From the NCBI GenBank assembly GCA_024220525.1, contig JAMYWO010000065.1:29802-93801 (forward strand): a DNA stretch of 64,000 nucleotides, read 5' to 3'. The position numbers and the translations under genes are program-made. Under the pieces are notes generated by a model. The model was not told the origin of the DNA. It ran no database searches and saw nothing but the letters and a program-made list of their open reading frames with translations. Shown here one piece after another: positions 1-29,400 of the stretch (positions are counted from its first letter, which is position 1; every line of letters begins with the position of its first letter). The DNA is from Cochliopodium minus. Lineage: Eukaryota; Discosea; Himatismenida; Cochliopodiidae.

Positions 1-1643
1 AGGCATTGGATATGGCTAAAATTGCTCATCAGAAAGATCCCAATGATTCACTCATGATAGCTACGATTGGGTATATCTATTTCATACGACAAAAATATAA
101 AAAGGCATTGCATTTTTTTAATGAGGCAATCAAATTGGATATTGGATTTGCAATGGCTTATTTGAATAGGTAAACCTTTATTATTTTATCACAATATATT
201 CAAAATTTTAAATAAAATATTTCAGTTATAATTGAACTGAGCACTAAAAAAAAAAATCATAGATAGTTCATATCAATCCAATTCAACCAATTCATATAAA
301 ACAATAAAAAAAAAATTTAAATAAAAATTAATTCCCAATCAAATTGAGCTATATAAGAATTCAAATATGGAAATGTTTTATTTTTAAATTGGATTGTTGT
401 ATAAATTTAAAATATCTGTAATAAAAATTTATATTACTGTATAATTGAATTGATATCACAATATCTTTATAATAAATTGAAATGATTTTCCAAAAAAAAA
501 AATTTTAGTGATCCTGATAAACATTACTTCATTAGAAAGTGAAATACTTTCATTTTTGTTTTAAATTCATCTTTGTTTTTTTTTTCAGTTTGATTAAAAA
601 GTTTTATATTAAAATTTAAAAGATTACAACATATATATGTAAATACATTCATTCACAAAGAAAAAAAAGAAAAGAAAGTACCATAACATCATCTTTTTTA
701 CTTTTAATAATTTTTTTTTTTTCTTCAAATCAAAAAGAGGAAACACACATTTAAGATTGGGAGATAAAGATAAAGCCCTCGAAGATTTTTCAACTGCAAT
801 CACTATCAACAAAGGTAAAATAAAAAAAAAAAGTTAATAAAAGAAAAATATAGAAAAAATCAACATGAGTTATTAACTTAAAGAAAGAATATTATGGAAA
901 ACTAAATAATGAAATAAAATTTGAACAAAATTATTAAAAAAAACTGATAAAAGATTCATTTAACATACAAAAATAATTTAAATAAATTTAAAAAAATATT
1001 AAAAAATATTTGAATTGAAACCAAAAGATTTGAATTAAATATTATTCAATGAAATCAAAACAAAATAAAAACACAATAAATAATAAAATAATTAATGAAT
1101 TAATTTATGAAATATTTAAAAAATCTTAAAAAATAAATGTTCAAATAAAATAACTTGAAATAAAATATGAAAAAAATAAAATATTAAAAATTTTATTCAA
1201 AATTTTTTTTTAAAAAAAACAGAGTTTGAATCAGCATATTTCGCAAGAGGAAATTCATGCATTGAAATGAACAAGTTAGAAGAAGCAGAAAAAGATTTGA
1301 AAACATGCGTCAGTTTGGCTCCCAACAAATCCCGCTCTCACATCAGATTGGGTCTTATCTATCACAAACAAGGCAACCATGAGAAAGCCATGTATGCCAT
1401 AACCAATGGTCTTTTGTTGGACCAAAAAGATAAGTATGGATTCGTTTGTAAGGGTGATCTCATGATTGACATGAAGGTAAACAAAAATTTTTTTTTTCAT
1501 TTTGTGATTTATTTTGTATTTTTGTGATTTAATTTTTATTTTTTATTTTATTTATTTTTTATTTTGATTTAATTTTATTAATTTTTATTTTTATTTATTT
1601 ATTTTTATTTTATTTTTATTTAATTTTTATTTCGTAATTCTTA

Positions 1644-1674
<31 letters not shown>

Positions 1675-1818
1675 ATTTTTTATTTTGAATATTTCAATTC
1701 TTTTTATTTTTTATTTTTTATTTTTATTTTTATTTTTATTTTTATTTTTATTTTTATTTTTATTTTTATAATATTTTTATTTTATTTTTATTTTTATTTT
1801 TATTTTTATTTTTTATTT

Positions 1819-1853
<35 letters not shown>

Positions 1854-2060
1854 GAATTTTTTTTTTTTAAGGATTACAATACAGCTCTTGAAGCTTATAA
1901 TACTGCGATTGAAATTGACGTAAAATATGTTAAAGCCTACCAACAAAGAGCCAAACTGTATGATTTGCTTCTCAAAAAAGATTTAGCAGAGAAAGACAGG
2001 GAAACTATTGAAAAGTTAACTTTTACCCTCCCAGAAAAAGATAAAAAAGAAAAAAAATGA
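1..2060 (+). CDS. TPR-repeat protein, 3' part (5' end outside window)
   Basis: Exons 1-169, 738-814, 1223-1476 and 1872-2060 join in one frame and end in TGA. The first exon is open at the window edge, so the start is missing. The product is built of tetratricopeptide-like helical repeats: segments such as KKALHFFNEAIKLD, KALEDFSTAITIN and EEAEKDLKTCVSLAP show the usual small residue/Ala-Phe spacing and follow each other about every 34 residues. The C-terminus is lysine-rich. TPR arrays are protein-interaction scaffolds and no catalytic domain is visible, so no specific role can be given. All three introns are GT-AG; the third is filled by a TTTTTA-type simple repeat. Confidence is good for the TPR call and moderate for the first splice junction, which was chosen because it keeps the repeat register. 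Confidence 0.75.
1530..1862. repeat. T-rich simple repeat (TTTTTA/TTTTATT-type) inside an intron
   Basis: Nearly the whole intron between the third and fourth exons of the TPR gene consists of degenerate then near-perfect repeats of TATTTTT units. Similar tracts occur at 13167-13217, 14264-14323, 37021-37110 and, as the complement, at 48561-48653 and 52505-52680. Confidence 0.8.
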
Positions 2061-2192: not shown

Positions 2193-5100
2193 TTATAATA
2201 TTCTTCCATCCATTATAAAAAAAGTGACTAGAAGTGAAGCAACAAAGTAATAGTTCTGGCCAGCAGTGACGTTCAAGTTAAGCAAATAACCTGATCTGTT
2301 AATAGAACCAAGATTAAGTTTATCATTGGTAGTGAATTCCTTTGAGAAAAAAGAAAAAATTAAAATGAAAAAATTTAAATTATTTTTTTACATAAAGAAC
2401 AAGAGGTTGATTCGCACTCACTGAGGTGTAACAAAAGTTTCTTTCAAATATTCTAAAAACTCCATTTTTGTTGTGTTGGCCAAACTGTTGAAAGACAGGA
2501 TTCCTATTAAAGCAAAGTTTAGTGATGGAAGATTTTTCTGTGTATTCAATGTGGGCGAATTCCCATTTTAATCCAGTGATGTCCAACTTGGTGCTTGTGT
2601 ATAAAGGAAATCTGCTCATGACCATTTTGTTAATCATTCTTGGCTTTTCGATGCAAAAGTGGATATCTTTAGTAGAAAACAAAATGCTATCCTGAATTTG
2701 TCCACTTAATGCCACATTGTATGTCGGAAAAAACATGAAACAACCATTGCTGTTATAGAAACTACAAGTAGAAGAAGGGATATTTAAGATTTGAATGGGG
2801 TCTATCTTTTCACATCTTTCTAATGAAACGGTTCTCAATGAATTGTTTTCTTTGGAGAGGGTTTCGATGTCAGAGAATTCAATGTTTTTCAAATCGTTCA
2901 AATTCAATTTCTTAAGACTGAACTCTTTCAAGAATTTGTGGATACTTTCTAACTCCAAGTTGTTACATCCACTGATATCTAATTCTTTAATCTCTTTGAA
3001 TCCCATTTTTAAAATCTCTAAAGTTTCCAAACCAAGGCTTGTACAAAATCCCAACTAAATAAAAATAAAAAATTATTTTAAAAAAGTTTTTTTTTTACAT
3101 CAAGATTTTTTAAATTTGGAATTTTTTTGGAAATAATTTTGAGTGAAGAGTCTTTCATGGATGAAAAGTTGTACACCCCAAATTCTTCAAGAGATTCAAG
3201 GAGAGGAAAATTTTCAAAAAACTGCTCGAAATCAAACTCTTCTTCGAAAGAAATCTGGGGGAGATGCAACAGTTTGAGAGAAGAGGAGTTGTTATTGATA
3301 ATGTGTAAAAGAGAAGGAAGAATAAGGGGAGACAAAGTGGCCTTGCTCTTCAAGTTTAGAACAGAAAGATTTTTGTGGTGAATGAAAACTTTGTCAAAGA
3401 GAGTTGTTTGAAGATCCACATCCAAATTTTTGGAAGGAGAAAACACAATTTTCTGGATCTTGTGGGCATTTTCGATAGCGTAAGGGAGAATCTTGCATCC
3501 ATTCTTTATTAATCTTGAAAAAACGATCAATTCATTCGAATCATAAGGAAACAAATCTAGTATCTGTGGAGCTATAAAAGGATTTAGTTCCAATGCAGTG
3601 TTGAAATAGAAAACAGATTTTTTGGAAAGATAATCTTCCAATTCTCCCTCTTTGAAAGTATCAACGATAGGATCTTGATATTTTACTTTTGGGTTCTTCA
3701 AATAAAAGTCGATGTAAGATCCAAAAAGAAAATTTCCTTCAATTTTTTAAACGGAAAAAAAAGTAATTATTATTTTTATTTTTTTTAAAAAAAAAAATTT
3801 TAAAAAGGTTTTGTACCTTTTGATAGTAATTCTTTATCTTCGGTCTTCACGGAAGTGGCATCAACCAAACTTTTTTCGGTTCTTGACAAAAGTTTCGAAG
3901 AAACAAAATTCGTCTTTTGAAGTTTGTGCACATACAAATTGGCAATAGAATAGAGGGCCAGGTGATTACCAGGATCAAACTCGAAGATTTTGTGGTAAAT
4001 TTCTTTTGCTTCTTTGTGTTTCGGGTATTCCTTGAGCAATTCTCCATATCTGATGTAACCGTCAATGAACTTTGGAAAGTTTTTTATTATGGTCTCATAG
4101 AGGCTCACTGCTTTACTGTAATAGACACTATTTCCCGAGGAGGTGGACTTATTCAACATGTGAAATACATTTGCGAGTTGAAAGGATGTATCCAAGCTCC
4201 CTGCTGTTGATCTCAGAGCGTTCTAAAAAAATAAATTAATAAAAAAATAAATAAAAAGTAAAATAATAAAAATTAAATAATAAAATTATATATTAAAAAA
4301 AAGTAAAAAAAACAAAAATTAATAAAAATTGTTTTCTTAATTTTTATTTAAATTAATTCTTACCGTCAACATTTCTTGCGCAGATCCCAAAATTCTTTCA
4401 TTTGCTTGATTGTTTGTGCTTTCTTTTACTTTGTAGATAAGAGCCATTCCTTATCAACAAAAATTCAATCAATTATTTCCAAAAAAAAGAAAAAAGAAAA
4501 AAGAAGAAAAAAAGATTCTGAAAAAAACTTTTTGAATTTTTTTTTTTACCTCCTGCATAGTCTACCAAGTTAATATGTTTCACTTTGGACTCTATCGAAA
4601 CAATGTCCGAGTCAACAAAAAAGAAACTATCAATGAAATTAGTGTTGTTGTAAGTTTCGTAGCAATTCGCTTGGAACTCTATGTTCATCAAACTTTTCAA
4701 TCTGTTCAAAATCAAGATCTTGTCATTATAATCAATCAAGTCTTTCACATTGCTCATTTCCAATTCAGCAGGAGACAAAATCTTTTCGAATTTCTCTTGC
4801 AACTTTTCTTTTAGTTCTCCATTCCAATAAAAGTCGGAATCTTCAGAGTTCTCATTGGTTCCGAGGATCAAATTCAAAAATTCTGAAGTGATACTCTTGA
4901 AGATTTGGTCGTTGGGAACGGTGAGTTGGGACATCATTTCTCGGTAGAGTGATCTCAGTTGGCATTTCATTGTTCTTACCAGTGCTTCCACCAACAACAA
5001 TTTTTTGATTTCGTCATTCTTTGAATTATATCTAACTCTTCCTATTTGTCTTTTTATTCATTTTAAAATAAAAGTTTTTCAAAATAAAAATTTTGACATG

Positions 5101-7549
5101 AAAAAATTTAAAAACAGAAAAATAAAAATTTGATTTTAAATTGTTGAAATTAAAATAAAAATTTTGTTAAATTTAAAAATTTGTTCTTTTTTTTTTACCT
5201 TATATTTACTCCCATTTCATGGAATACAAGAATTAATTTTGAAGGATCATTTCTGTGTTCCCTTTCAAAATTTTCGTCCAAATGTTGTGCGAGCATAGGA
5301 ACTGTGTTAACGAGAAGATCTCTGAAGGCCTCCTCCACTTCTGCTTTATGAATTTTATGATCATGGATTCCCATTCTAGAAAAAGCATCTGGAGACAAAG
5401 GTTTCTTCCATTTTTGAACAAATTCTTTGTTGAAAAGTTTTTGAATTAAATTATTAAAAAAAAAATTTTTAAAGGTAAAAACCTGGACGTAAAAGTTGAT
5501 ACAATGTCTTTTGCCAATTTGTTTTTCCGGGTGGCTACAAAAACATTTGTTTTTTGATTATCAAAATATTAAATAAAGAATTCAAAAAAACAAAAAAAAA
5601 AATAAGATTCTTTACTTCAGGAGGCATGTATCTTGCAAAATCCAAAACATAAAATCTCCCATCTTTTCCTTTTCCTTTATGAACCTTTTTAATATATAAA
5701 TGATAAATTAATAATAAAGTACAGGTTACATTTTTAATTTAAAAAAAAAGATCTTCTAAATTTTACTTCTATATCAGCAGGTCCATAAATGTTCACTTTC
5801 TTTTTGTTTCCAACAATATGTCCTTTGATATTCATCTTTTTACCCAACTTCTCCATCATTTCGTTCACTTTTGGTTCACTATCATAAACTGTATTTCCTG
5901 CATCAAAACTTCCATACCTAAGTTTAAATTTAATATTTTTAATCAAGGGTTGGAAACAAAAATTATTAATAAGGTTTGTCTTACACAATAGTATCTAAAA
6001 TAAAAAATATAAAAGTTTTGTTAGATTTGATTAAAAATTTCATCAATATTTTATAAAATGATTTACCTTTTCCTATTGGAAGTAATGATATTGCGGTAAC
6101 TCTATATCCTCTATAATCTATCAAGGCCATCAATGGAACATGGAGACCTATTTAATTCAAACAAACGATTTTATTTTAATTGAAAAATTGAATTAAAATT
6201 AAAAGTGAATAAATGCATTATTTGTTTATTCAACATTTGTTTTAAAAAGATAATTTACCTTCAATTTTGTGATTGAAATAAGTCATCAAGCCGTTCAGTT
6301 CATGTCCCGCTGCTTTCATTGCACCTTCATCCCCTCCATAAATTCCTTCAAAATCAATTGCAAACTTGAACAATATACCTATTTTAAAATTGAAATAAAG
6401 ATTTGAGAAAAAGATTAAAACTAAGAAAATTTTACCTTGTACAATGTATTTCTGAAAAAAAAAAAATAACAAAATTATTTGATATTGTTGAAAGGAAATT
6501 ATATTTTTACTTCACCTCCAGCAATCCCTATTTTAAAAAGAAATTTTTATTTTGATATTAAAAACAAAAAAAAGAAACGATCAAATTTTACCTCCAATAC
6601 CAACAGGTTTTATTGTTTTTTTCTCATTTGGAAGGCATTTCTCCGAAATGATGATTCTTCCATAAGTCTCCGCACAATAAACAAAGTCTTGTGCCAAATT
6701 TCTCAGCCCGTCATATTTCTCGTATGAATTCTCCAAGCTCATCAGCTCTTGAAACTTCTCATTCCACTCTGGAGGTTTTGGGATCACCTTCGAAGTTTTT
6801 GACCACTTGATCGCCTTAAGAAGTTTTGCTAGATTGCTGCTGTTCACTTGAGGATCCTTTTCTGTTTCTTCATTTTTGTTTTCCTTTATTGTATCTTCAG
6901 GATTATCATAATTGCTTGTATTTTCGATGAGATATTGGTTCTCTTCTGTATTCTTTGTTGTATATTTCTTCTCCTCTGTATATCCAGGTATGCTATATTT
7001 GTTTTCCTCCTTGATTGATTCTCCTGTTGGATTATATCCTTTTATTGTATCTTCTGGGTTATCATAATTGCTTGTATTGGGTATTGTATATTTAATCTCT
7101 TCTTCTTTTTCATTTTCTTTTATATCTTTATAATTTTCTGTATAATTGTTGTTATCATCACCAATCAAGTAATTAGATGATTCTGGTTGATTATAATTCG
7201 TGGAATTTGTTTTTATGTTATATCCCGTTAAAGAAATTTCATTTGGCTTATCATAATTAGAAGGGAGACCATAATTAGGAGGATGGCTATAATTTATCTG
7301 TTTATTATCATCTCCTCTTTGATTTTTATCACCTCTGTAACCAGAAAAATAATTATTAACTCTTATTTCATCTTCAAATTGATCTTTATCCTCTTCATCA
7401 TCTCCAGGTGGTAGATAATTCCTATTCTTTCCTTTATATTTCGATTTAATTTCTTCAGTTATCTTATAAGAAACCTCGGAAGATTCATCCTCAAAAATTC
7501 CAAGATAGTTTTCTAATTCATCCTGTGGTATAAGATAATTGTTTTCCAT
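2193..7549 (-). CDS. CLU domain-TPR-LRR protein with hydrophobic C-terminal tail, paralog A
   Basis: Sixteen exons (complement): 6592-7549, 6511-6527, 6436-6451, 6259-6378, 6067-6147, 5985-5994, 5767-5917, 5616-5684, 5483-5534, 5199-5424, 4550-5049, 4364-4449, 3817-4222, 3099-3736, 2392-3054, 2193-2339. They sum to 4140 nt, 1379 residues. Residues 1-290 are low complexity with NYL motifs (MENNYL at the start, RNYLPP later). Residues about 290-570 match the CLU domain known from Clu/CLUH proteins, with AGHELNGL, ALIDYRGYR, YGSFDAGNTV, GRFYVLDFARYMPP and LSPDAFSRMG. CLUH proteins bind mRNAs for mitochondrial proteins in the cytosol. TPR-like helices (about 760-890) and leucine-rich repeats (about 1000-1180) follow, then an unrecognised conserved domain. 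The last 48 residues end in a hydrophobic stretch and MDGRIL. Unlike B and C it lacks the intron after the 11-nt exon and has an extra intron at 3737-3816. The membrane role is inferred. Confidence 0.85.
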
Positions 7550-7738
7550 TTATTTAAAAAATTGAGTTATTTTTAATTCTTTTTCAAAATTGAAATATAA
7601 ATTTTTTTTTTTTATTTTTTTTTTTAAATTACAAACATATAAAATCAAATTTAAGAATCAAATTTACAAATATAATCTTCAAATGTAAAATCATTGATTG
7701 TTGAAAATTGAATAACAAAAGTTTTAGTTCAAAAAATG

Positions 7739-10700
7739 TTAAAAAATTCTGTTGTCAATCAAATAGAACATGATTAAGATGGGAATGATCATGTAGACAT
7801 TATTTCCCTGGCAAACTATAATACTCAGAAACATGTTTTTTCTTTGAATGGTACCAATGTGTTTTCTCATCCCTCCAGAAGTTTCCTTTTAACGAAATTT
7901 GTTAAGAAAAAAAAAGAAAAGAAAAAAAAAAGATCGATTACATATGCCATAAGAGGAAGATTTGAATTAGGGGATGAAAAGGAAAAAGTTCTTCCACAAA
8001 TGTTAAAGATGCCATTAGTTTTAATGCCAACTTGGTTGAAAACAGTTTTGTTACCCAAATTGAGTTTAATGCTGTGATTGCTTTCCATTCTTTCAATAGA
8101 ACAGTATTCCCAGTTTTTATTTTCGCCATCCACATTTATTTGAGCTACAAACTGATATTTGCACCAAAAAAGTTTATTGATCATCTTGGGTTTTATGATG
8201 TACATGGTGAAATCATTATTTCCGACTTTGTAAGTATCAGTAATACTCGAAAGGAAAGAAAGTTCTTTAAGAGAAAAAGGAATATAATATCCATTAGTAT
8301 TAAGGAAGTTACAGGTGGAGATGGGCAAGTGGAGAATATCATAGGGATCTATCAGATTACAATCTTTGAAAGAGAGATACTCGAGACTGTTTTCTGCTTT
8401 CAAAAACTGCTTAATCATGTCAAATGTCAGATTTTTGTTTGAACTCAAGTCCAAGTGACCTATTTTGTTCTCTGAGATAATCTTTAGGAGATTTTCAATG
8501 TTGATTTGATCACATCCACTGATATCTAGCTTTTTCAATTCTTTGAATTCTTTCAAAATTTCGAGACTTTCCAAACCAAGACTTCTACAATATCCCAACT
8601 AAAATTAAAATTAAAAGTTTGTTTTTAGAGTAAAAATTTGTTAAAGAAGAAACTTTTTTTGCGAATTTTTTTTTTTTTACATCAAGACTTTTTAAGTTTG
8701 GAATCTTTTTAGATATGATCTTGAAGGAAGAATCTTTCATGGATGAAAAGTTGCACAAGCCAAATTCTTCAAGTCCTGGAAAATGGGGAAATTTTTCGAA
8801 GAATTGATCGAAATCAAAACCTTCTTCGAAAAGAATTAGGGGAAGATGCACTGATTTGAGAGAAGAAGAGTTGTTGTTCACCATGTTCAAAAGAGAGGGG
8901 ATTATCTGGGTAGACACTATAGTCCCTTTTAAGTTCAAGTGTTCCAAACGAGCACAGTAAAGAAAAATGTCGTTGAAAATTCTTTTCTCTCTTTCTAATC
9001 CCAAGTTATCAATGGAAAACAGTTTGAGATCATCGATCGTCTTTGCGATTTTCTTGCAGTGAGAAACAATCTGGTTGAAACCGTTAGACATCAAAGAAGA
9101 AAGGTAGACGATCTCCTTGTTTTCAAAGGGATAGTTCTGCAAGATTTGAGGGATCAAGTAAGGTGTTGCCTCAGCAGCGACGTTGTAAAACTTGGCAGAT
9201 TTCTTGATGTAAAAGAGCTCTCTGTCCTCACTTGAATATTCGTTTATTCCATAATGAGTATCCAAAGCCTTTCTTTTGTGCCTCAAAATCAAGTTCATCA
9301 AGAGTCCGTAGAGATAGTAAGATTTGGAAGTAGATTGAACGTCATTGAGAGAAAGAGAAATGCATTTCTCGAGCATCTCCTCGCAAGATTTGACCAATTC
9401 GACATCAGAAACTCCATGATTTATGCTCCTCTCGTAAAAAGCTCTGAGTCTTTGGTAGTAGAAGTTTGCCAAAGAATACAAACAATCGATGTCTTCAGGT
9501 AGAGAGCTAAATATCTCCTTGTATCTCTTTTCTGCCTTTTCGTAATAAGCCATACACAACTCTAAATCTCCGAGTCTGATCCAAGACATTTTGTGCTCTG
9601 GCAAAGACTTGATGTTGCTTTTGTAGATTGTTTTCGCTCTTTGATACAGTTCCGTTTTTAAAGAGAATTGTTGTTCTACGTCTATCATTAGTTGGAAGAC
9701 ATTAGCGAGCTGGAATGTAGTCTCAATGTGTCCGGATGTTGATCTTTAAAAAATAAAATTTAAGTAAAATTGAATTACAATTTAAAATATTTTTTTTTTT
9801 TTTGGGTTTACTTTTGTGCATTCTTTGTTTTTGCAAATGAAAAATAAAAAGAAAATAAAATAAAAAAAAAAAGATTTTTTTAAAATTTTTTTACAGTCAA
9901 CAATTCTTGTGCAGTGTTCAAAATTCGGTTAGTGGTATCGTAGTTTTTCATTTCCTTAATTTTATAAACAAGAGACATTCCTAAAAGATTTTGGTTTTAA
10001 ATTTTGATAAAAAAAAGTTTTTTTTCGAATTTTTTTTTTTTTTTTACCACTTGCATAATCAATCAAGTTTAGATGTTTGACTTTCGTATCAACAGAAACA
10101 ATGTCAGTCACAAGGAAGAGGATCGTCGAAAGTTGTGCACCAGAATGGAAAAAAAGATCGCTGCAACCTTTGGAGAGTTTGATGTTCATCATCTTTATAA
10201 ATCTCTTCAAAAGAACAAGCATGTCGAGATCATCTACAAGTGTTCTGATCTGGAAATTAGGTTCCATTTCTCCAGGAGACAAGATTTTCTCAAATTTTTC
10301 CACCAATTTTTCTTTTAAAACCCCATTCCAGTATTGTTCCGACTTTGTCTGGTTTATGTTCCCGAAGATCAAGTTCATGAAGGAGATGGTGATCTCTCTG
10401 AAGACTTCTTCATTGGGAACGGTTAGCTGGGACATCTTTTCTCTGTAAAGTGCTCTCAAGTGGCTTTTCATTGTTCTTGCAAGTGCTTCTACCATCAAAA
10501 GCTTTTTGATTGTTTCATTCTTGGAATTGAATCTGACTCTTCCTATTTGTCTTTAGAAAAACCATTTTTATTTTAAATTTGAAAAAAAAAAATATTTTTT
10601 TTTCTTTTTTTACCTCATGTTCACTCCCACTTCATGAAAAACAAGAATGAATTCCGAAGGATCATTTTTGTGCTCCTTTTCAAACCTCTCATCTAATGAC

Positions 10701-13167
10701 TGTGCAAGGCTGGGAATTATTTCGATTAAAAGATGTTTGAATGCTTCTTTCACTTCTGCTTTGTGAACTTTATTATCATGGATTCCCATTCTAGAATAAG
10801 AATCTGGTGAAAGAGGTGTTTTTGATTTTTGAACAAATTCTTTTTTTTTTGAAATTTTTAAATTGTTTACTTTTAAAATTAAAAATTTTTTTTGAATTAA
10901 AATACCAGGACGTAAAAGTTGATACAATGTTTTTTGCCATTGACTCTTTTTGGGTGTCTTTGAATAATTTCTTTTATAAATTGAAATAATGGATTATAGA
11001 AAAAAAAATTACTTCAGGAGGCATGTATCTTGCAAAATCTAAAACATAAAATCTTCCATCTTTTCCTTTATGAACCTTTTTTAAAATAATTAAATGATAA
11101 AATGGTTAAAATTTTAAATTTAAATAAAAAAACATCTGAATTTTACTTCTATATCAGCAGGTCCGTAGATGTTCACTTTCCTAAATTTTCCAACGATGTG
11201 TCCTTTGATATTCATCTTTTTACCCAACTTCTCCATCATTTCATTCACTTTTGGTTCACTATCATAAACTGTATTTCCTGCATCAAAACTTCCATACCTA
11301 AATTCAAAGTTTTTATTTACATTTTTACTACAGTTGGAAGAAAAATTGAAAATTGTCTTACACAATAGTATCTGATATAAAAAATACAAAAATTTAGTTA
11401 GATATGATTAGTTATTCGTCAATTTTTTTAATCAAATAAAGCATTTACCTTTTCCAATTGGAAGTAATGAAATTGCGGTCACTCTGTACCCTCTATAATC
11501 TATCAATGCCATCAATGGAAAATGAAGACCTATTAATGTAAGGATAAATTTTAAAATTTGTTGAAAAAATTATTTTAAAGTTCAAAATGAAAATATTTGT
11601 TTATTCAATATTTGTTTTAAAAAAATAATTTACCTTCAATTTTTTGGTCGAAGTAAGTCATCAAGCCGTTCAGTTCATGTCCCGCTGCCTTCATTGCACC
11701 TTCATCCCCTCCATAGATTCCTTCAAAATCAATTGCAAACTTGAACAATATACCTATTTTAAAGTTGAAATAAATCAAGATTTGAAAAAAAGTTTAAAAC
11801 TAAGAAAATTTTACCTTGTACAATGTATTTCTGAAAAATAAAAAATGAAAAATTATTTTATTGAAAGGAAATCATGTTTTTTACTTCACCTCCAGCAATC
11901 CCTATTTAAAAAGAAAATTATTATTTTGAAATATAAAAAAAATAAACAATCAAATTTTGCCTCCAACGTTGACAGGTTTTATTGTTTTTTTCTCATTTGG
12001 AAGGCATTTTTCTGAGATGATGATTTTTCCATATGTCTCCGCACAATAAACAAAGTCTTGCGCAAGTTTTCTCAGTCCATCGTACTTTTGGAAGGATTCA
12101 TCCAAGCTCATCAGCCTTTGAAATTTTTTGTTCCACTCTGGTGGTTTGGGATCAGATTGGCCCTTCTTCCAAGGGATATCTGTCAATAATTTTGCAAGTG
12201 GACTGCATTCTGTATCTTCTTCACTTTCACTCTTACTTCTATCCTCATCTTCTTCATCTTCTACTCTGTCATTTTCATAATTGTAATTGTTATCGTTATT
12301 ATCATTGGAATTTTCCTCATCAGTGTCATTTTTGTTATCATAATTATTTTTGTATTGATTATTATCATCAATGTAGTTATTATTGGATTTATCATCGTCA
12401 TCTTCATCATTATAATTGTCTTTTAAATATTTATTCTCCACTATCTTTTCATTTGTTTCATAATTATTATATCCTCCTTTATATTCATTAGTATTCTTAT
12501 TATTTCCTCTATTATCATCCTTTCCATAATTGGATTCATTTCCCTTATATCCATATCCATAATTATAATTGGATTTTTGTTGATCATTCCCCTTGTAATT
12601 CTGATAGTTGTTATCATTCTGCTTATTTCCTCCAGTTGAAATTTCCTTGTCTTCTAATTCAGTCACCTGCTGATAATTGTTGACATTTCCATAATTATTA
12701 TTAATTTTATAATTAGATTTGGAAAGTATATTATTGTAGTTGTTACTTTTATTATCATTGTTGTTATTATTGGTGATTTCATTGTTATTATTGTTTCCAT
12801 TATTGGAAATGGGAAAATTGGAGAAAAAAAAATGGTAGGTAAAAGTTGATCTTGGGATGTTTTCTTCCTCTTCTTTGTTTTGTTGTGCTATAATCTTTTT
12901 TTCTTCAATCACATCTTCAGGCAAACTGCCATACCCTCCAAGATAATTAGAGAGAATCTCTCTTTCTTTGGGATGATTGGATTGCTCTTCAATGAATTGA
13001 TCAATATCGATATCTACTTCATCAGGAGGGAGATAATTGGTGTTATATCCACTAAATTTAGATCTGATAGATTCATTCAATTTTGTTGGTGTATCAGATT
13101 CATCATCCTCCTCAAATCCCAAATAATTTTCAATATCCTCTTCACCAATCAGGTAATTGTTCTCCAT
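7739..13167 (-). CDS. CLU domain-TPR-LRR protein with hydrophobic C-terminal tail, paralog B
   Basis: Sixteen exons (complement): 11961-13167, 11885-11901, 11815-11830, 11634-11753, 11449-11529, 11362-11371, 11147-11297, 11013-11075, 10906-10957, 10614-10839, 10048-10550, 9895-9980, 9812-9822, 8681-9743, 7942-8598, 7739-7885. The sum is 4410 nt, 1469 residues. Architecture is as in paralog A, with a longer Asn/Asp-rich linker (to about residue 330) between the NYL motifs and the CLU domain. The first intron appears to use a GC donor (exon ends GGAG, intron starts GCAAAA) where A and C have GT. A separate 11-nt exon (9812-9822) carries residues that in A are fused to the TPR exon. The tail has a hydrophobic segment around IIPILIMFYLI and ends DNRIF. 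The gene ends 190 bp after the start of A, in the same orientation. No signal peptide is seen, so the C-terminal segment is more likely a tail anchor than a GPI signal. Confidence 0.85.
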
Positions 13168-13217
13168 TTTTTATTTTATTTTTTATTTTTTATTTTTTAT
13201 TTTTTATTTTTTATTTT
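13167..13217. repeat. Short TTTTTTA array at the start codon of paralog B
   Basis: About seven units of a T-rich heptamer lie directly upstream (on the coding strand) of the ATG of paralog B, in the 173-bp spacer to paralog C. It is probably a simple repeat. Its position means the promoter or 5' UTR of B is almost pure A/T. Confidence 0.7.
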
Positions 13218-13339
13218 TGCATTTTTGAATTTTTTCATATTTGCATTAAAACAATGAAAATTCAAAAGATTTTTTTTTTGATTTTTTTAATTTAAAAACT
13301 TTGTATAAATTGAAAACTCTTTTTAAAAGAAAAAAGAGT

Positions 13340-14262
13340 TTAAAGAGCTCTTCCATCCATAATATAACAGAACATAAGAAATGGAAGAGCAAACATTATG
13401 TTGATTCCCTTTGTGATTCTTATAAAAAACATATTAACTTTTTTTTCAATCCTTCCAATGAGCTGTTTGCCATTATTGGTTATATCCTTTTTTAAAAAAA
13501 AAAAATAAAAAAGTAAAAAAAGTAAAAAAAAAAAAAGTTATTACATAAATTTCAATAGGAAGACTATTGGTGAAAACGAGATGATAAGATCTCCCAAAGA
13601 AGGAAGGTTTAAAAGCATTCATTACACCCATGTGAGCAAAAGCTTGCTGACCATTAAAGAAAAGTTTGGTGCTCTTTTGGGATTCGCTTCTTTCGATAGC
13701 AGCAAATTCCCAAAAAGTGTTCAAACCGTCCAACCTGTAATTGGTGTTGAAGGTATATTTCTGAGGCAACATTTTATTGAACGAAAAAGGTTTCTTGAAG
13801 TAGATCTGATAACCAGGGCCCCTGAAGGAAGTGTTGTCTTGAAATAGAACGGAAGTAGTGAAATCTTGGTCAGTGAAAGGAATGAAATAGCCGGTAGGAC
13901 CAACTAAACTGCACTTGGAATTTTGGAGTTGGAGCAATTGGTTCACATTCAACTGGTTGCAATTATGAAAAGAGATGAGTTTGAGGTTTCCTTCCATCTT
14001 GAGAAGTTTTTCGAGTTGGGCGTAGTTGAAGTTGTTTATGTTATTGAGGATCAGGGTTGACAAGTTTGTCTCCATCACAACGGGAAAGAAGAGCGATGAA
14101 TCGAATTGCTGGCAACCTGTAACATCGAGTGTTTCGAGATTCTTTATATTTCTAAGAATGTTAATTGTATCTAATCCAAGTCCCTCGCAAAGTGATAACT
14201 AAAAAAATTCAAAAATTAAAATTGTAAAAGGTTTAAATTAAAGTAAGAAATAAAAAGGTTTA

Positions 14263-14293
<31 letters not shown>

Positions 14294-17200
14294 TAAAAAT
14301 AAAAATAAAAATAAAAATAAAAGGTTTAAATTGTAACCAGAAATAAAAAAAAAAAAAATATATTTAAATAATTTACATCAAGTTTTTTGATATTTTCTGC
14401 TTTTTCGACAATTATTTTCAAAGAAGTTTCTTTGATTGATGTAAAACCCTTCAAACTCAACTCAATCAAAGCAGGAAGGAGAGGGAGCTTCTCAAAAAAG
14501 GTATCAAAATTAAAGTCTTTCTCAAAAGAGATCTCAGGGAAGTGAAAGACTTCCAAACGAGAAGCATTCTTCTTCAAGAGATCATGAATAAAAGGGACAA
14601 CTTGAGCAGTAAACTTTGTTCCCTTGAAAGATATTTCCTTGAGATTGATACAAGAAGAAAACAAGTTGAAGATTCTCTTTTCTTTTTCTGGCTCCAGGTT
14701 TTCGATGGATTGGAACTCCAACTTTTCCAAAGCTCTCAAATTTCTGTTGTTTTGTGAAACGATGTTGTTGCAACCCTTGCAGATCAACTCAGAGAGATAG
14801 AGAATATTCTCATTTTTTAGAGGGTACAACTTGAGGATTTCTCGGATGATGAGAGGATAAGCTTCTGCAGCAGTGTCAAAGAATTTGGCGGCCCTTTTGG
14901 TGATGTAATCCATTCTTTCATCTCCTTTGTACATGTCCATCTCTGGGTTAGTATCGGATTTGATGTTGGGGTTTCTGAGAAAGAAGTCCATCAAACTTCC
15001 ATAAAGAAAGTAAGCTTTGGCAGTAGTTTGAGAGTCTTCAACAGTCGCAGAGATGCACTCATCAATTCTCTCTTCACACTTTCTTAAACTTTCTGTGTCA
15101 GAGTAATGAGTCTTGTATTTCACGTGGTAAAAGTTGGCAAGGGCATACAAAGCAGAATGACAACCTTGAAAAAATTCTAACACTGCCAAGTACTTTTGTT
15201 CAGCTTCATCGTACTTGCCATCCAACAACAAGAGATCCCCAAATTTGATCCAAGCTAGATGGTGGCGAGGAGAAAGGTTGATCACTTTTTCGTAGTGATT
15301 GGAGGCCTTGTGGATGAGATCGTACTTCTTTTGATTGTTGGTATCCACTTCAGCCATCTTGTGATAGACATTTGCAAGTTGGTAAATTGTTTCTATGTTT
15401 CCCGATGTTGATCTAAATTAATTTTTAAATTAAGAAAGTTAAAATTGAAATGATTTTAAAGAAACCACAAAAACTTTTTACCTCAATGCCCTCTTTTTAA
15501 TGAAAATATTAAAATAAAAAAATTCAGATTATTAAAAGAAAAAATGAAAATAAAAAATATACAGCGAGCATTTCTTGGGCAATATCCAATGTCCTTGATT
15601 TAATGATGTCGTTAGTAGTTTCTTTAACTTTGTAAATAAGAGCCATTCCTATTGAAAATAAAAAGAAATCAAAAATAATTTAAAATAATTTTAAAAAACA
15701 AATTGTTAAGAAATAATTAAATAAAAAATTGTTATGGAATAAAATATTAAAAAAAAAGATAAAAAAAAATAAAATAAAATAATATTTTTACCTCCTGCAT
15801 AATCGATCAAATTGATGTGTTTAACTTTTGTATCAACAGAGACAATGTCAGAGACAATGAAAAAGAAGCCAGAATCAAGACTCTTGTCACAAGTAGGAGT
15901 GAACTTGATTCCCATGATCACCTTGATTCTATTGACCAACATGAACAGATGGTTATTGCTCAAGATGGATTTGATGGAAAAAGAAGGGTCCTCTTCTTCA
16001 GGAGTCAAAATCTTCTCGAATTTATCTTTCAACTTTTCTTTCAGAGGGCCGTTCCAATAAAGTTCAGACTTGACAGAGTTCTCGTTGTTTCCCAAAACCA
16101 AATTCAAAAACTCTACGGTGATCTCTCTGAAAATGTCGTCATTGGGGACTGTAAGCTGAGACATTTTTTCTCTGTAGAGGGCTCTCAATTGACATTTCAT
16201 TGTTCTTGCGAGTGCTTCAATGAACAAATAGATTTTTATGTCTATATTCTTTGACAGCAACCTAGCTCTTCCTAATTGTCTATAAAATAATTGGAGTCAA
16301 TAAATTTTGCATAAAAACATGAATTTTATAAAAGAATTTTAAATAGAAAAAAAAAAATTAAAATTTCTTTTTTTTTTTACCTCATGTTCACTCCCACTTC
16401 ATGAAAAACTAAAGGTAATTCAGACAGAACATAACCATGTTCGTTGAAATAATTTTCGTCCAAAGATTTTGCGAGATTTGGAATGGTTTCAAGTAGAAGA
16501 TGTTTGTATGCTTCTTTCACTTCTGCTTTGTGAACTTTGTTATCGTGGATTCCCATTCTAGAATAAGCATCTGGTGAAAGAGGTGTTTTCCATTTTTGAA
16601 CAAATTCTTTTTTTTTTGAAAATTTTTAAATTATTTACTTAAAAATTTAAATATTTGTTTTTGAATTAAAATACCAGGACGTAAAAGTTGATACAATGTT
16701 TTTTGCCATTGACTCTTTTTGGGTGTCTTTGAAAAAGTTGTAAAATTAAAAACATAAAGAAAAATGAAAAAAATAAGATTCTTTACTTGAGGAGGCATGT
16801 ATCTCGCAAAATCCAAAACATAAAACCTTTCATCTTCTCCTTTTCCCTTATGAACCTTTAAAAGGTGGATAATCAAAAAATTTTAATAAAACTACAATTA
16901 TTTTTACCTCGATATCAGCAGGTCCATAAATCAAAACCTTTTTCTTTCCTCCAACAATATGTCCCTTTATATTCATCTTTTTACCCAACTTCTCCATCAT
17001 TTCGTTCACTTTTGGTTCACTATCATAAACTGTATTTCCTGCATCAAAACTTCCATACCTAAGTTTAAATTTAATATTTTTTAATCAAGGGTTGAAAACA
17101 AAAACTATTAATCAGCTTGGTCTTACACAATAGTATCTAAAATAAAAAATACAAAAATTTTGTTAGGATTGATTAAAAATTTGGTCAATATTTTAATAAA

Positions 17201-18845
17201 ATGATTTACCTTTTCCTATTGGAAGTAATGATATTGCGGTAACTCTATATCCTCTATAATCTATCAATGCCATCAATGGAACATGGAGACCTATTTAATT
17301 CAATGAAAAATTATAAAATTCAATGAAATAAATGTTTATTAATTTACCTTCGATATTTTGATTGAAATAAGTCATCAATCCGTTCAGTTCATGTCCTGCT
17401 GCTTTCATTGCACCTTCATCTCCTCCATAAATTCCTTCAAAATCAATTGCAAACTTGAACAATATACCTTAATTAAAAAGAATGTTTATTTAACAGTCTA
17501 GAAAAAGATTTAATAAAATAAATTTACCTTGTATGATATATTTCTAAAACATCAAATTAATTAAGTTTAAAAAAATGGTTTTGAAGAAAAAAATTTTTAC
17601 TTCTCCTCCAGCAATACCTTTGTTTAAAGAGTAAATTCAAAAAAAGAACTCATAATTCAAAACAATTATTTTACCTCCAATACCAACAGGTTTTATTGTC
17701 TTTTTCTCGTTGGGAAGGCACTTTTCGGAAATGATAATTCTTCCATAAGTCTCCGCACAATAAACAAAGTCATGTGCCAACTTTCTTAACCCTTCAAATT
17801 TTTCATAAGATTCGCCCAGTCTCCTCAATTTTTGAAACTTTTTGTTCCACTCTGGCGGTTTCTGTCCAACAAATTCCGGTTTCTTCTTCCAAGAGATGCT
17901 ATCAGACAACATCTTTGCAAGAGGGCTGATATCATCATCTTCACTGCTAATTTCATCTTCTTCAGATTCCTTTCCTTTTTCTTCTCCTTTGTATGTCTCA
18001 TAATTGTTTCCCTCATAATTATATTCTCTTCCATATGAATTATCATTTCCATATTTCTCCTTATTATCTTGATCGTAATTGGATCTTGGATCATTATTAT
18101 CCAAAAGATAATTGATCTTTGTATCTCCAGATCCGGATTCTGTATAATTGTTATAATTGTTATAATTGTTATAATTGCTGTAGGAAGAGCTCTTATTATT
18201 CTTGGTGATGACATTCTTGAATTTATACAAATCATTTGAGCTTGTTTTTGAATATCCTCCTTGTCCTGGCTTCTTCTCACTCTCATCCGATTTATTTAGG
18301 GAATCCATAACAGAGATGGAATTATCATCTTCGCTGTATTCCATATACCCTGAATATTTCTGTATCATAACTTTCTTGTCCTTTGATACCACACTATCAT
18401 CTTCTGCCTCCTCTGTCAATGCATTCACCGAGATATAATTTTTGTTTCTTTCCTTTTCGCTCTCATCATCGTCATCATCACCTCCCTGCTCTGATGGGGT
18501 GTATGCAGATGTATACATCATATGTGTCTCTTCCTCTTCTTCAGATATGCTAGGAGAATTGTTTTTGTTGGTCTTATCTCTTTTTGGACTGAGTTGTATA
18601 TCTTCAGAACAATAACTATCCTCCTGAGATATCTTTTTATTCTTCAATGGTGTCTTTTTTGTAATATTTATATTGGGAATCTCATCTTCATCAGGTGGAA
18701 GATAATTTGAATTATATCCCATATATTTCGATTTTATCTCTTCTGTTAATTTCATATTGCTTTGGGAGGATGATATATTTGAATCATCATCATCAAAAGA
18801 TAAATAATTATCTAAATCTTCTTCAGCAACCAAATAATTGCTCAT
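13340..18845 (-). CDS. CLU domain-TPR-LRR protein with hydrophobic C-terminal tail, paralog C
   Basis: Sixteen exons (complement): 17675-18845, 17601-17617, 17528-17543, 17348-17467, 17210-17290, 17127-17136, 16908-17058, 16787-16855, 16675-16726, 16381-16606, 15792-16279, 15563-15648, 15482-15492, 14377-15412, 13545-14198, 13340-13486. The sum is 4335 nt, 1444 residues. The N-terminal 340 residues are acidic and Ser/Asn-rich with NYLVAEEDLDNYL at the start and SNYLPPDEDE near residue 45. CLU, TPR and LRR segments follow in the same order as in A and B. The LRR part is more diverged, and the unknown domain after it keeps a conserved pattern of aromatic residues. The C-terminus has a hydrophobic stretch (INIMFALPFLMFCYIM) and ends DGRAL. 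It is the promoter-proximal end of the array, with 366 bp separating it from the divergent AK6 gene. Confidence 0.85.
14264..14323. repeat. AAAATA-type simple repeat in an intron of paralog C
   Basis: About ten tandem hexamer-like A-rich units lie inside the intron between exons 14377-15412 and 13545-14198 of paralog C. Confidence 0.7.
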
Positions 18846-19211: not shown

Positions 19212-20003
19212 ATGGAAATAACTAGAAAAAGACCAAATATATTGATTTGTGGAACACCAGGCAAATAAAATTTTGTTTATCAAAAAAAAATATATGATAA
19301 TCCAATTGATCATAGGTACTGGAAAAACAACATTATCAGAATATGTATCAAAAGAATTAGATTTCAAACATATCAATGTCAGTCAACTTGTTGTTGAAAA
19401 AGAATTGCATGATGGAAAAGATGAGGAATGGGATTCATATATTCTTAATGAAGACAAGGTAAATAATAAAAATTTAAATTATTACTAATCAATTCATCTT
19501 ATTTTAAGGATATTTTAAAATTATTAAAAAACATATCAATAAATCAAATATAAGAGTTGATATCATTATATCATCTATTTTTTTAATGATCTTTAAAGAT
19601 ATAAATTTAAATATTTGGAGATCTAAACAAAAAAATCAAAATGTACAAATTTCTTTAAACACAACAGGTGTGTGATGAATTAGAAGAAGTAATGTCTGAA
19701 GGAGGTATTTTAGTGGACCACCATTCTTGTGATTTTTTCCCAGAAAGATGGTTCGATTTTGTATTCGTCCTCCAAACAAACAACACAATCCTCTATGACC
19801 GACTTGAAAAGAGAGGCTACAAACAAAACAAAATCACTGAAAATGTAGAATGTGAAATCTTTCAAACAGTACTCTTTGAAGCACAAGAAAGCTATAAAGA
19901 AGAAATTGTGTTTAGTTTGGTCAGTGAGACTGTTAACCAGCTCGAGCCAAACTGTAATTTGATCAAAGAAAAAGTTGATGATTGGATCAAAGAAAAAAAC
20001 TAA
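19212..20003 (+). CDS. Adenylate kinase 6 / Fap7-like P-loop NTPase
   Basis: Exons 19212-19260, 19316-19458 and 19668-20003 sum to 528 nt, 175 residues, the usual length for this family. The P-loop GTPGTGKT is split by the first intron. Further marks are the N-terminal PNILICGTP, the ILVDHHSCDFFPERWFD segment and the LEKRGYKQNKITENVECEIF region, all typical of AK6/Fap7/CINAP. Family members are small nuclear or cytoplasmic adenylate kinase/ATPases that act in the final 20S-to-18S rRNA cleavage of the small ribosomal subunit. The first intron (19261-19315) starts GCAAAT and ends ATAG, so it is apparently a GC-AG intron; no GT is positioned to replace it. Function in this organism is inferred from family membership. 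Confidence 0.9.
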
Positions 20004-23507: not shown

Positions 23508-23869
23508 CAAAAGAAAAAATATTTATTGCTCCCAATATTATTTAATGTAAAAAAAAATAAAAATCAAACAAAATTTCCTTTGTTATTATTATTTTCATTT
23601 TAAACTATTTTAAACTATTTTGAGTTTTATTTATTTCTAATGCTTTTTATAAAGTCAAAGAAGAGGGAGGGATTGGATGATAATATGATTGTTGTTGGAA
23701 ATCCTTATTATGCAAATTTGCATCATTAAAAATTTACTGATATAATTTATTCCTCTTACATAAATTCATGAAATGTTTTACTATTACTTCACATCCACAA
23801 AATATATACTTTATATTTAATTGAAAAGAAAATTATATATAAAAAATTATTCTCTCTTTTAATATTCTT
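23508..23869. other. AT-rich intergenic spacer
   Basis: No open frame or RNA-like structure is recognised between the GT61 gene and the PARP-like gene. Confidence 0.5.
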
Positions 23870-24460
23870 ATGGATATATATTATAACACATTTTTCGATT
23901 ATTTGATGCTAAAATATGATAACAAAAATCAAGTAGATTCGATGATAATGGGTTGGCGTCGTGACGGAACATATGAAAAGCGTGCCAAAATGGTTTTTCA
24001 TGTTGGAAATGAATCTAGATTAAGGCCTGCAAATCCTGAATTTATTTCTTCTCTCAATAAAAATGATAATCTTTATAATCAAAATAAAAAGCTATATGAA
24101 AGAAATCAAAGATTGATGATGAATTCAAAAATTTTATATCATCAAACAGATTTAGAAATAGCCAATTCAATATCTAAAACAGGATTCAAAAGAGTGGGAT
24201 ATAAAGGTTTGGCTGGTTCTGGAATCTATTTCGCGACATCAAAAGAACACACAGAACATAAAGCCATTAATAAAGGTGTAATTTTTGAATGTGAAGTTTA
24301 TTTAGGAAATATAAAGACAATTAGCAAATATGGAGACGAAAGCATAACGTTCGAAAAATTACAAAAAGAAGGTTACGATTCTGTCTGTATACCAAGAGAC
24401 AATGGATGGGAATATGTTGTTTATATGGATGATCAAGTAAAGATTCTTAAACAAATTTAA
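23870..24460 (+). CDS. Small PARP-like ADP-ribosyltransferase
   Basis: Single-exon frame of 196 residues. From residue 88 on it resembles the PARP catalytic fold: LYHQTDLEIANSISKTGF (first His of the H-Y-[E/other] triad), GLAGSGIYFATSKEHTEHKA (Tyr), the FECEVYLGNIKTI strand, and GYDSVCIPRDNGWEYVVYMD near the end, where the ED/glutamate strand usually lies. The first 85 residues hold no known domain. PARP-type enzymes transfer ADP-ribose from NAD+ to proteins or nucleic acids. A glutamate in WEYVV could be the catalytic residue, but that alignment is by eye. No partner domain (zinc finger, WWE, macrodomain) is present, so this is a minimal transferase. The ATG is the first in frame. Confidence 0.72.
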   Translation: MDIYYNTFFDYLMLKYDNKNQVDSMIMGWRRDGTYEKRAKMVFHVGNESRLRPANPEFISSLNKNDNLYNQNKKLYERNQRLMMNSKILYHQTDLEIANSISKTGFKRVGYKGLAGSGIYFATSKEHTEHKAINKGVIFECEVYLGNIKTISKYGDESITFEKLQKEGYDSVCIPRDNGWEYVVYMDDQVKILKQI

Positions 24461-26456: not shown

Positions 26457-29400
26457 TCAATTATTCCTGATGGAATCTATTGGAAAATTATTGTTCCCTT
26501 GAGATGGATTATTATTATAGATCCCTTTAGGTTGTCGATCAACATAGCCATTGCCATTGAGATTGATGAAAGAATTGCCATTATTTCCATTGATATGGAC
26601 TAAATTGGGGTTATCTTTAGAATAACTCTCTTGTTGAATGTGAGGAGTATGAGTTGAAGGAGGAGCATCATTAATTGGTGGCAGGATATTATCATTAGAT
26701 TTAGCTTCATTTTGGTGAGAATTTACAAGATTATCAGTGCCATTGTTAGAATTTCTTCTTTTCTTTGGATCAGGAGGCAATTCTGGTCCAATATCAGGAG
26801 GAGATGCAGGAGGGCTGTTGGGAGGCAAAGGAAGGGTAACAGGATTGTTTAAAATGAGATTATTATTGTTATTATTACTGAGGGTTTCGGTGATAAAATG
26901 TTGGTGGCTTCCATTGCTCTCCTCCAATTTTCTTTTGTTGGTAGATCCTGTTCCATTTTCTTGGATAGGATCATTAATGGGAGGTGGCACATAGATGGTA
27001 GATTGAGAAGGATGAGTGTGGAATTTAAAGATTGGAGGAGGTATCAATTCATTTTTTGAGGGTTGTATTTGTATACTATGTATTTGAAAAGAATGATGTG
27101 TGTTATTATTATTGTTATTATTTACAGTATTTATATTTATATTATCATTCTTTTGAATGACATTATTATTTTCAATCTTTTCATTGTTATTGTTATTATT
27201 ATTATTGATGCTTGGATTTGTGTTAGTATTATTGATAGAGATGATGATATTCTCATGTATCTCCTCTTGTTTGAATTGAACTACATTATTGTTATTTTCG
27301 ATGATTGTGTTTTGTGTACTATCAATAGGAGAAGAAGAAGGAGAACCCTGCAAAGGACTCTGATTTGCTTCTTCTGATTTGGATTCATTCTCTTCAGTAA
27401 GATACTTGGTCATCCATGCCTTCTTACCAACCATCTTCGGAAGAACAACTTCAGAACTCTCCTTCAATTCCTTCTTTATCTGGCCTTTGGGAGGGGTAGT
27501 TCTTGAAGAAGAGTTGTTGGAAGAAGGGATTTTGCTGCTATTCAAAATGGATCCATTCACATTTTGGGAAGAATGACCAAGAGGCTTCTTGTTCAACAAA
27601 TTGGATTGAGCTTTGGGGCTTGATTCCCTAAAGTTATTGTTATTTGACGGAAACAATGTTTTTTTGGCTAATGAATTGGTGGATGTTTTGAGGGAGGTTT
27701 TTTGAGACAAATGATTAGGAAGAGGGCTTTGTTTCTTCTTCTCTTGTTCCTCCAATCTGTCAATGGTCTGTACGATTGCTTGGAGTTTCCTTTCCTCTCT
27801 GCTCATCTTTGATGAATTTCTCCTTGATTTGGATCTTGATCTGGTTTCATGTGGGATAGGTGTGGGAGCAACATCAACTTGCAAATCTATAATCACCTTC
27901 TTTTTGGGAATAGGTTGTTGTTCGATCACAATCTTTGGCTCCTTCTCTTTGACTATTGTCTCCAACTTGTTACATTCAAGGAACGTATCGCTCAATTTTT
28001 TTCTGTCAATGTACCACAAGAGAACAGGACATTGTTCTTTAGTGCAAGCACATTCCAAACCATTTCTGAGAGATCCATAAGAATAATCAAAAGGGATGGT
28101 GATTTCACTTCCAGCTTCAATCTTGCAAGTTGAAAAGATTCCCAATCTCATCTTCCCATCTATCCATTTTTCAATCACCTTCGCGTTGGGAGAACATGAT
28201 CTTCTTAGATATCTTGAAACATTTCCATGTTTGGTGGCATCGACACAAAGACCCTTCTCAGGGAAGATCAATCCACGAAAATTTGGTTTGGTGAGTTTTC
28301 CTTTGAGATTCCTGTAAGCATCCCACGTGGTAAATTTTCCATAAAACTCTATTATCAATTGTGATTGATCAATGGCTCTATTTGTAAATACACCATATTC
28401 AAGATACCATTGATCATTCTGATCTTTCTTTTCCTCCCACATTTCAACCTTTAACACCTTCATGAAATCCTCCAAAGGATTATCCAATGAATTTGGATCT
28501 GATATTTCTTTTGGTTTGGTGATGTTGTCTGATACCTTTGTATATATGTTTTCATTTTTCAACTTCCATCCAGAAAAAGGATCTTTATTATCTGTGCCCA
28601 CAATGAAACTTGGTGAGCTCAATTGTTGTATATCCAATGCCATATTGTAGAATACTTCGTGTATTATTGCCACTTTGCAATTAAATATTATCGCAACTGA
28701 TCTCAATATATTCTCCTATATATTAATGGTATTAAAAATGGAGAAATTGTTAGTATTATATAAATTATAAATTTTTTTTCTCTTTTATTTCTTACAGATA
28801 ATTCCTCATTATGAGCATTTCTACAATAATGTTTCCAATATCTTTCCAATACTGCAACCTCTTTGGTATTGAAGTTGTAGTCTTCTTGATTTTTTTTCTT
28901 CTTCCTTTTCTTCTTGTTTTTCTTTGCATATTCTAGCCAATCATTCTTGTATATGATGGGAGAAAAAAATAAGGGTAAGAAAAAATTGATAAATTGAATA
29001 TATGGAACAAAAATAATTACTAATTTTATTTTTATATTTATAATTTTATAAAAGAGAATAAAAATTTTTTTTTTTTATATTGCATACCAAGAGTTCATTC
29101 CTAATGTCTTCATTATCTATATATTTGAACATATCAGCCTATAGAAAATAGATATTAATTTTTATTAGGTCTTTATAAATATTTTAAATTAAAAATATAT
29201 TACCTGTTTGGGAACGCATAGATGGCAATAAAAGGTTTCTGGCATTTTCTGTTTTGTTATTCCAAAATAGCATTCTGCATGTTGCCAAAATTCGCATTTA
29301 TCGCAGCAAATCATAAGTGATCCACTATCTACATTTTGTCCACATCTACATTTGATTTCTTCATCATTATCTTCTGAATTAGAATTTGAACTGTTATAAT

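Follow-up and report, generated by a model that had tools for sequence, protein, structure and literature searches.

The tandem CLU genes and their models

The DNA discussed here is a window of 64,000 nucleotides (nt) from the amoeba Cochliopodium minus (contig JAMYWO010000065.1 of assembly GCA_024220525.1, positions 29,802 to 93,801), and all coordinates below are those of the window unless another locus is named. The assembly has 598 contigs and 44.65 Mb; the window is AT-rich (GC 18-33% in 2-kb steps) and, judged by its introns, eukaryotic. On its minus strand lies a tandem array of three genes, G1, G2 and G3, which share a homogenised CLU core and have diverged in the tetratricopeptide repeats (TPR), the leucine-rich repeats (LRR), a C-terminal domain and a hydrophobic tail. 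A first-pass annotation had placed three complete paralogs at 2193-18845, and these coordinates are right. Spliced by hand, each gene gives an uninterrupted model of 16 exons with one stop codon, the terminal one, and all introns are GT-AG except for a single GC-AG.

2193..7549, minus strand: G1, CLU-TPR-LRR-C-domain gene; spliced model, 16 exons, 1379 amino acids (aa), single terminal stop
7739..13167, minus strand: G2, CLU-TPR-LRR-C-domain gene; spliced model, 16 exons, 1469 aa, intron 1 GC-AG, CLU match E=1.4e-64
13340..18845, minus strand: G3, CLU-TPR-LRR-C-domain gene; spliced model, 16 exons, 1444 aa
5985-5994, 11362-11371 and 17127-17136, plus exons 2-3 of each gene, minus strand: micro-exons in the spliced models

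The micro-exons in the CLU domain are 10, 16 and 17 nt long, with identical sizes across the three genes. An additional 11-nt exon is found in G2 and G3, with none at that place in G1, and the TPR part of G1 carries an extra intron.

The annotation gave all three proteins the order NYL motifs, CLU, TPR, LRR, C-terminal domain and tail. This order stands for CLU in every gene; TPRs are clear in two genes, G1 and G3, and below cut-off in the third, and the LRR matches are weak. The N-termini carry NYL-like motifs repeated within low-complexity sequence, as judged by eye. A whole-protein Pfam scan was made for G2, where the CLU domain PF13236 is matched at aa 344-555 with 218.4 bits against a cut-off of 24; in all three genes PF13236 matches exon by exon in a profile search of the genome. 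The same scan of G2 gave a weak match of a helical stretch to eIF3_p135 (the M region; 19.5 bits, cut-off 22) and no Pfam match to an N-terminal beta-grasp domain. TPRs are over the Pfam cut-off in G1 and G3 (26.9 and 33.4 vs 24.4 bits) and below it in G2 (14.4 vs 23.5 bits), and the TPR part of G3 matches consensus-TPR proteins in PDB at 2.6e-32. The LRR scan covered G1 and G2: LRR_4 reaches 28.5 bits in a stretch of G1 (a query whose first letters are inexact) and 21.9 bits in G2, the cut-off being 27. The C-terminal domain of about 128 aa is encoded by exon 15 and precedes the tail exon. Searches of Pfam, NCBIfam and PDB sequences gave no significant match to it; the best E values, 0.042, 0.038 and 0.19, all belong to unrelated families. 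For the last exon alone the best E was 0.013, likewise not significant.

5616..6769, minus strand: G1 CLU domain; exon-wise PF13236 matches, split over exons, bounds approximate
11013..12138, minus strand: G2 CLU domain, aa 344-555; Pfam match mapped onto exons
16787..17852, minus strand: G3 CLU domain; exon-wise PF13236 matches, bounds approximate
14377..15411, minus strand: G3 exon 14, TPR repeats then start of LRR region; TPR_17 33.4 bits (cut-off 24.4), PDB consensus TPR 2.6e-32
8353..9020, minus strand: G2 LRR region, exons 14-15; LRR_4 21.9 bits (below 27), paralogs 34-44% identical, bounds approximate
2392..2775, minus strand: G1 C-terminal domain, exon-15 part; paralog alignment, no significant database match
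7942..8322, minus strand: G2 C-terminal domain, exon-15 part; paralog alignment, AlphaFold model with a confidence score (pLDDT) of 40
13545..13922, minus strand: G3 C-terminal domain, exon-15 part; paralog alignment

The uniform core and the hydrophobic tail

Between paralogs the CLU core is 88-89% identical in amino acids, with a synonymous divergence (dS) of 0.42-0.69 and a ratio of nonsynonymous to synonymous divergence (dN/dS) of 0.11-0.18. Right after the core identity is 62-65% and dS 0.90-1.05, and at the N-terminus the values are 30-42% and 1.56-2.25. From the TPR through the LRR and the C-terminal domain to the tail, identity is 25-44% and dS ranges from 1.9 to saturated, apart from one pair of 48-codon tails at 1.00; for the TPR, LRR and exon-15 part dN/dS is 0.23-0.32 where it could be computed on saturated dS.

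The introns follow the core. Introns 1-4 are 75-89% identical between G1 and G2, introns 5-6 are 90-91% identical between G1 and G3 and intron 9 is 90% identical between G2 and G3, with introns 7 and 8 intermediate. Introns 10 and 11 are 2-9 points over shuffles, the LRR intron 1-6 points, and the last introns are 63-70% identical vs 54-59% in shuffles. Sites in the aligned core and near flanks at which two genes are grouped against the third were taken as informative. The 596 informative sites give 275 pattern switches, where shuffles have a mean of 396 and a minimum of 356 (0 of 10000 reach the observed number). The longest runs are 18 sites for G1-G3 and 20 for G2-G3 (null means 5.6 and 5.0; 0 of 5000 each); the longest G1-G2 run is matched by 168 of 5000 shuffles. 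Core introns that are alike in alternating pairs, and synonymous divergence that is low only there, are not what selection at the protein level produces. The most fitting reading of these comparisons is gene conversion in a patchwork, with the CLU core at its centre.

5199..6800, minus strand: G1 putative gene-conversion core, CLU exons and introns; intron identities, pattern runs, dS 0.42-0.69, bounds approximate
10614..12200, minus strand: G2 putative gene-conversion core; intron identities, pattern runs, dS, bounds approximate
16381..17900, minus strand: G3 putative gene-conversion core; intron identities, pattern runs, dS, bounds approximate

At the other end of the proteins stands the last exon, which is exactly 147 nt (48 aa and stop, phase 0) in all three genes, as the annotation had said.

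2193..2339, minus strand: G1 last exon, 147 nt, ends DGRIL; spliced model, insertion-energy scan, predicted strand-strand-hydrophobic helix
7739..7885, minus strand: G2 last exon, 147 nt, ends DNRIF; spliced model, insertion-energy scan, predicted helix at exon residues 30-46
13340..13486, minus strand: G3 last exon, 147 nt, ends DGRAL; spliced model, insertion-energy scan

Since frame, length and stop are kept between the paralogs despite mostly saturated synonymous sites, the last exon is very probably real coding sequence. Its dN/dS between paralogs is 0.26, 0.33 and 0.69, values that are rough at this saturation, and 7 of 48 columns are invariant in the alignment of the three.

The transmembrane check that had been proposed for the tails was run as a scan of the free energy of membrane insertion (dG). 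The tail is indeed hydrophobic and conserved: the 19-residue window of lowest dG in the entire protein lies inside the last 24 residues in all three cases, and no 19-residue window outside the tail has 1 kcal/mol or less in any of G1-G3. When the last 48 residues are considered, 3, 6 and 8 of 2000 composition shuffles match that dG; when the entire chain counts, 26, 39 and 35 of 200 do. It is therefore the position of the tail which is unusual, not its dG value. With windows of 17-23 residues the best dG is -0.02 kcal/mol for G1, +0.54 for G2 and -0.09 for G3, similar to the tail anchors of CYB5, FIS1 and SEC61B (-0.25 to -0.66) and far above that of VAMP2 (-4.5).

The hydrophobic run is about 14 residues long and has a proline inside in G2 and G3. 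An AlphaFold model of the 48-aa exon alone, made with the three-paralog alignment, has strands at residues 9-14 and 21-25 and a helix at 30-46 (pLDDT 67); the predicted helix spans the greasy stretch and a conserved Asp-x-Arg, and about 4 residues separate it from the second strand. The exon-15 part modelled alone is all-beta from residue 64 on (pLDDT 40). With its preceding predicted strands, the gap of about 4 residues and a short run that bears a proline in two of three, the tail looks as a helix of a folded beta domain would. The predicted order strand-strand-helix would also fit a short anchor placed after a domain.

The CLU family in the genome

The search of the genome with PF13236 gave 119 exon hits, of which 117 are flagged as passing the family cut-off (both numbers are lower bounds); the hits group into 63 CLU clusters on 49 contigs. 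A cluster is here a set of matches on one contig and strand, split at gaps of more than 1.9 kb; clusters are not proven genes, and some may be fragments or pseudogenes. Pfam was run for partner modules on 27 open frames selected from 15 of the 20 fetched CLU stretches, which are labelled L with a number. In L015 RCC1 and eIF3_p135 share one open frame, both over cut-off, and TPR is below it. In L026 an SH3 domain over cut-off and the beginning of CLU lie in a single open frame, with LRRs downstream; the CLU piece in this frame has 19.3 bits, below 24, the remainder of CLU being in the next frame. C2 is over cut-off just upstream of CLU in L022, and SPRY downstream of CLU in L025; both are probably fused to the CLU genes. 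The joining of C2, SPRY and the LRRs of L026 to a CLU gene is deduced, because they lie in neighbouring frames. A plant-TOM20 match in L029 (22.6 vs 20.6 bits) is probably its TPR-like repeats, LRRs in L025 and L027 are below cut-off, and an F-box match just under cut-off in L032 may belong to a neighbouring gene. The frames scanned from L018, L020, L024, L028, L030, L031 and L033 hold no partner module, those of L020 and L033 having CLU alone. A classical copy, CLU-eIF3_p135-TPR, is present in one open frame of 1000 aa in L014. Downstream of it, at 4732-8969 of L014, a caspase-like protease, a NACHT-like NTPase, ankyrin and MORN repeats were seen by eye only.

Four members of the G1-G3 subfamily were found, the fourth on contig C29, where the contig end cuts the gene before the tail. 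Searched with a profile of domain and tail, the 20 other CLU stretches yielded no convincing match (the best, in C29, had 9.8 bits). Genome searches with single sequences returned G1-G3 only, and the tail is therefore a trait of this subfamily and not of CLU genes in general. The family of 63 clusters with swapped modules and the conversion centred on the core go beyond the first-pass annotation.

The genome has 105 exon hits to mitochondrial carriers, which is evidence in favour of real mitochondria. Cytochrome c gave no match in the genome, in a search which small exon-split genes could escape. A single Fe-hydrogenase-type gene at C1:398263-399345 is perhaps a cytosolic protein of the Nar1 type.

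The array has a TPR-repeat gene on one side (1-2060, plus strand; frame 1180-1524 matches TPR_1 at 3.5e-13), convergent with G1 and with stops about 130 bases apart. On the other side, upstream of G3, is a nucleotide-kinase-like gene (19246-20003, plus strand; AAA_18 in frame 19659-20000), which we take by eye to resemble adenylate kinase isoenzyme 6. Further on in the window are frames for a PARP catalytic domain (23843-24457, plus), a SET domain (26460-28715, minus), a protein kinase (30642-31502, plus) and a metallo-beta-lactamase fold (45303-45875, plus).

Readings of the array and known systems

CLU, a mitochondrial-positioning protein, usually occurs in one or a few copies per genome and has been known as a mitochondrial mRNA factor that stands alone. 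The reading we prefer, tentative and in our judgement not quite probable, is that the array belongs to a modular CLU family that has expanded greatly, and that it combines a common core with divergent arms and a C-terminal helix buried in a beta domain. On the simplest reading the core would do one job common to G1-G3, possibly docking on the ribosome or on the mitochondrial partners used by CLU elsewhere, and the arm of TPR, LRR and C-terminal domain might pick a partner or cargo that differs per paralog. The hydrophobic helix would complete the terminal beta domain; we lean slightly towards its being the last element of this domain, packed inside, rather than a free transmembrane anchor. The 63 clusters, at least two module fusions within one frame and an array with a uniform core separate the common part from the varying arms, and a comparison of paralogs thereby becomes a direct test of the CLU domain's binding partners. 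A wider proposal seems unlikely to us: a large family of shuffled adaptors or receptors built on CLU as its constant core, in which conversion would keep the core, arms with LRR, RCC1, SH3 and other modules would diversify, and the G1-G3 subfamily would be membrane-anchored via its C-terminal helix.

The 12-strand barrels of Tubby, phospholipid scramblase and LURP-one proteins end with strand-strand-helix and bury the greasy helix. G1-G3 resemble them in a predicted beta-rich C-terminal domain that ends strand-strand-hydrophobic helix with an Asp just past the greasy stretch; they differ in having no detectable sequence similarity and a more hydrophobic helix. Kinship by sequence was tried as a candidate and rejected: hidden Markov model (HMM) searches, hhalign and shuffled profile alignment were negative, weak or powerless. 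A number of results weigh against the reading as a buried helix in a conserved-core family. HMM searches gave no profile match of the C-terminal domain to Tub, Scramblase or LOR, and hhalign of the domain against LOR (7 LURP-one proteins) gave a probability of 0.2-0.3%. Against the LOR C-terminus the alignment score of the tail rises little above that of shuffles, 15 of 500 of which equal it, and a reversed tail does as well (14.0 vs 14.2); against the Tubby C-terminus the tail is under the shuffle mean. Foldseek found no useful match to the tail model, and with the exon-15 model (pLDDT 40) it was uninformative and found nothing. The dG of the tails is lower than that of the C-terminal helices of 7 LURP-one and 3 Tubby proteins (1.2-4.4 for windows of 17-23 residues). 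Homogenisation is clear in one array only: among three other tandem pairs compared, that on C443 has a weaker gradient (about 80% vs 70-75%) and those on C190 and C115 have no DNA similarity. Finally, the conversion pattern by itself is silent on function.

It should be added that in windows of 14-16 residues G1 (0.92) and G3 (0.99) overlap one LURP-one protein (0.92), and that the PLSCR1 helix has a dG of 1.0. The positive control of the profile alignment, LOR against Tubby, fails (249 of 500 shuffles), and the test is therefore without power; another alignment placed the tail best on the first part of LOR and not on its end (14 of 300 shuffles reach the score). The Scramblase and LOR models had no match in the organism's own genome. 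Neither had the Tub model, a result that shows nothing as the controls were likewise silent.

The first-pass annotation proposed instead tail-anchored CLU proteins which would use their LRRs to recruit partners at an organelle surface. On this reading the 14-16 hydrophobic residues at the end would be inserted after translation into the mitochondrial outer membrane or the endoplasmic reticulum; the rest would be cytosolic, with the CLU core kept constantly at the organelle surface. The anchor is possible, if rather doubtful. Its membrane-compatible hydrophobicity stood up to the scan: the values of -0.09 to +0.54 kcal/mol lie near those of the CYB5, FIS1 and SEC61B anchors, comparable windows are missing elsewhere in the proteins, the segment is C-terminal with 5 residues after it, and the tails are more hydrophobic than the LOR and Tubby helices when measured over 17-23 residues. 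In fly, CLU meets ribosomes at the mitochondrial outer membrane (PMC4823986). What speaks against an anchor is the shortness of the run and the proline in two of three tails, the absence of a basic cluster at the ends of the run with the conserved Asp-x-Arg nearby, and the predicted strands directly before it with hardly any linker. The minimum reached is not extreme in whole-protein shuffles, only its place is, and a strong anchor such as VAMP2 scores far lower. If the tail were an anchor, it would give a built-in localisation to a family otherwise described as soluble (PMC4541047).

The other two alternatives concern the array as a whole. By analogy with NLR proteins the CLU core might be a constant signalling part, with LRR and C-terminal arms for recognition of symbionts, pathogens or self; the large family, the tandem arrays, the core-centred conversion and the divergent arms agree with this. 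The dN/dS of 0.23-0.32 in the arms, at saturated dS, is that of purifying and not positive selection, and the searches of the CLU literature, none of which was aimed at an immune role by name, turned up no such role for CLU among the matches listed; we consider it improbable. Still less probable is that the genes are ordinary duplicates, with a core kept alike by strong purifying selection on CLU and a tail that is the side effect of an unrelated domain and has no special role. CLU is conserved family-wide and the low dN/dS of the core would suit this, but for the core it is contradicted by the alternating intron likeness and by the low synonymous divergence found only there.

Literature searches on CLU with LRR, RCC1 or SPRY, on CLU expansions and on membrane anchors gave, among the open-licence matches listed, no account of an architecture like this one. 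With CluA, Clueless, CLUH and Clu1 the three proteins share the CLU domain PF13236 and, over cut-off in G1 and G3, TPRs; the M/eIF3_p135 region has a weak match, below cut-off, in G2. They differ by an NYL-rich low-complexity N-terminus in place of a recognised beta-grasp domain, by the added LRR region, C-terminal domain and hydrophobic tail, and by the dozens of paralogs in the genome. The beta-grasp domain is absent in the yeast CLU protein too, and in fly Clu the TPR part binds mRNA and the Clu and TPR domains are both required for function (PMC4823986). The Dictyostelium protein CldA has CLU and SH2, and its partner LrrB has LRR and SH2 (PMC3085826). CldA is thus similar as a CLU domain joined to a protein-interaction module in an amoeba, but here the modules (LRR, RCC1, SH3 and others) are joined to CLU in cis, in a family of far greater size. 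The Trypanosoma protein FLAM3, with an N-terminal CLU and long repeats, is a protein of the flagellar attachment zone and likewise uses CLU outside the classical mitochondrial protein; it is flagellar, and the part of the source available does not mention LRR or a hydrophobic tail for it (PMC4541047). As in tail-anchored proteins, the sole membrane-compatible segment of G1-G3 (by the dG scan) lies at the extreme C-terminus and is followed by a short polar end; what sets G1-G3 apart from them is a short run that has proline in two of three and is joined without a linker to predicted strands.

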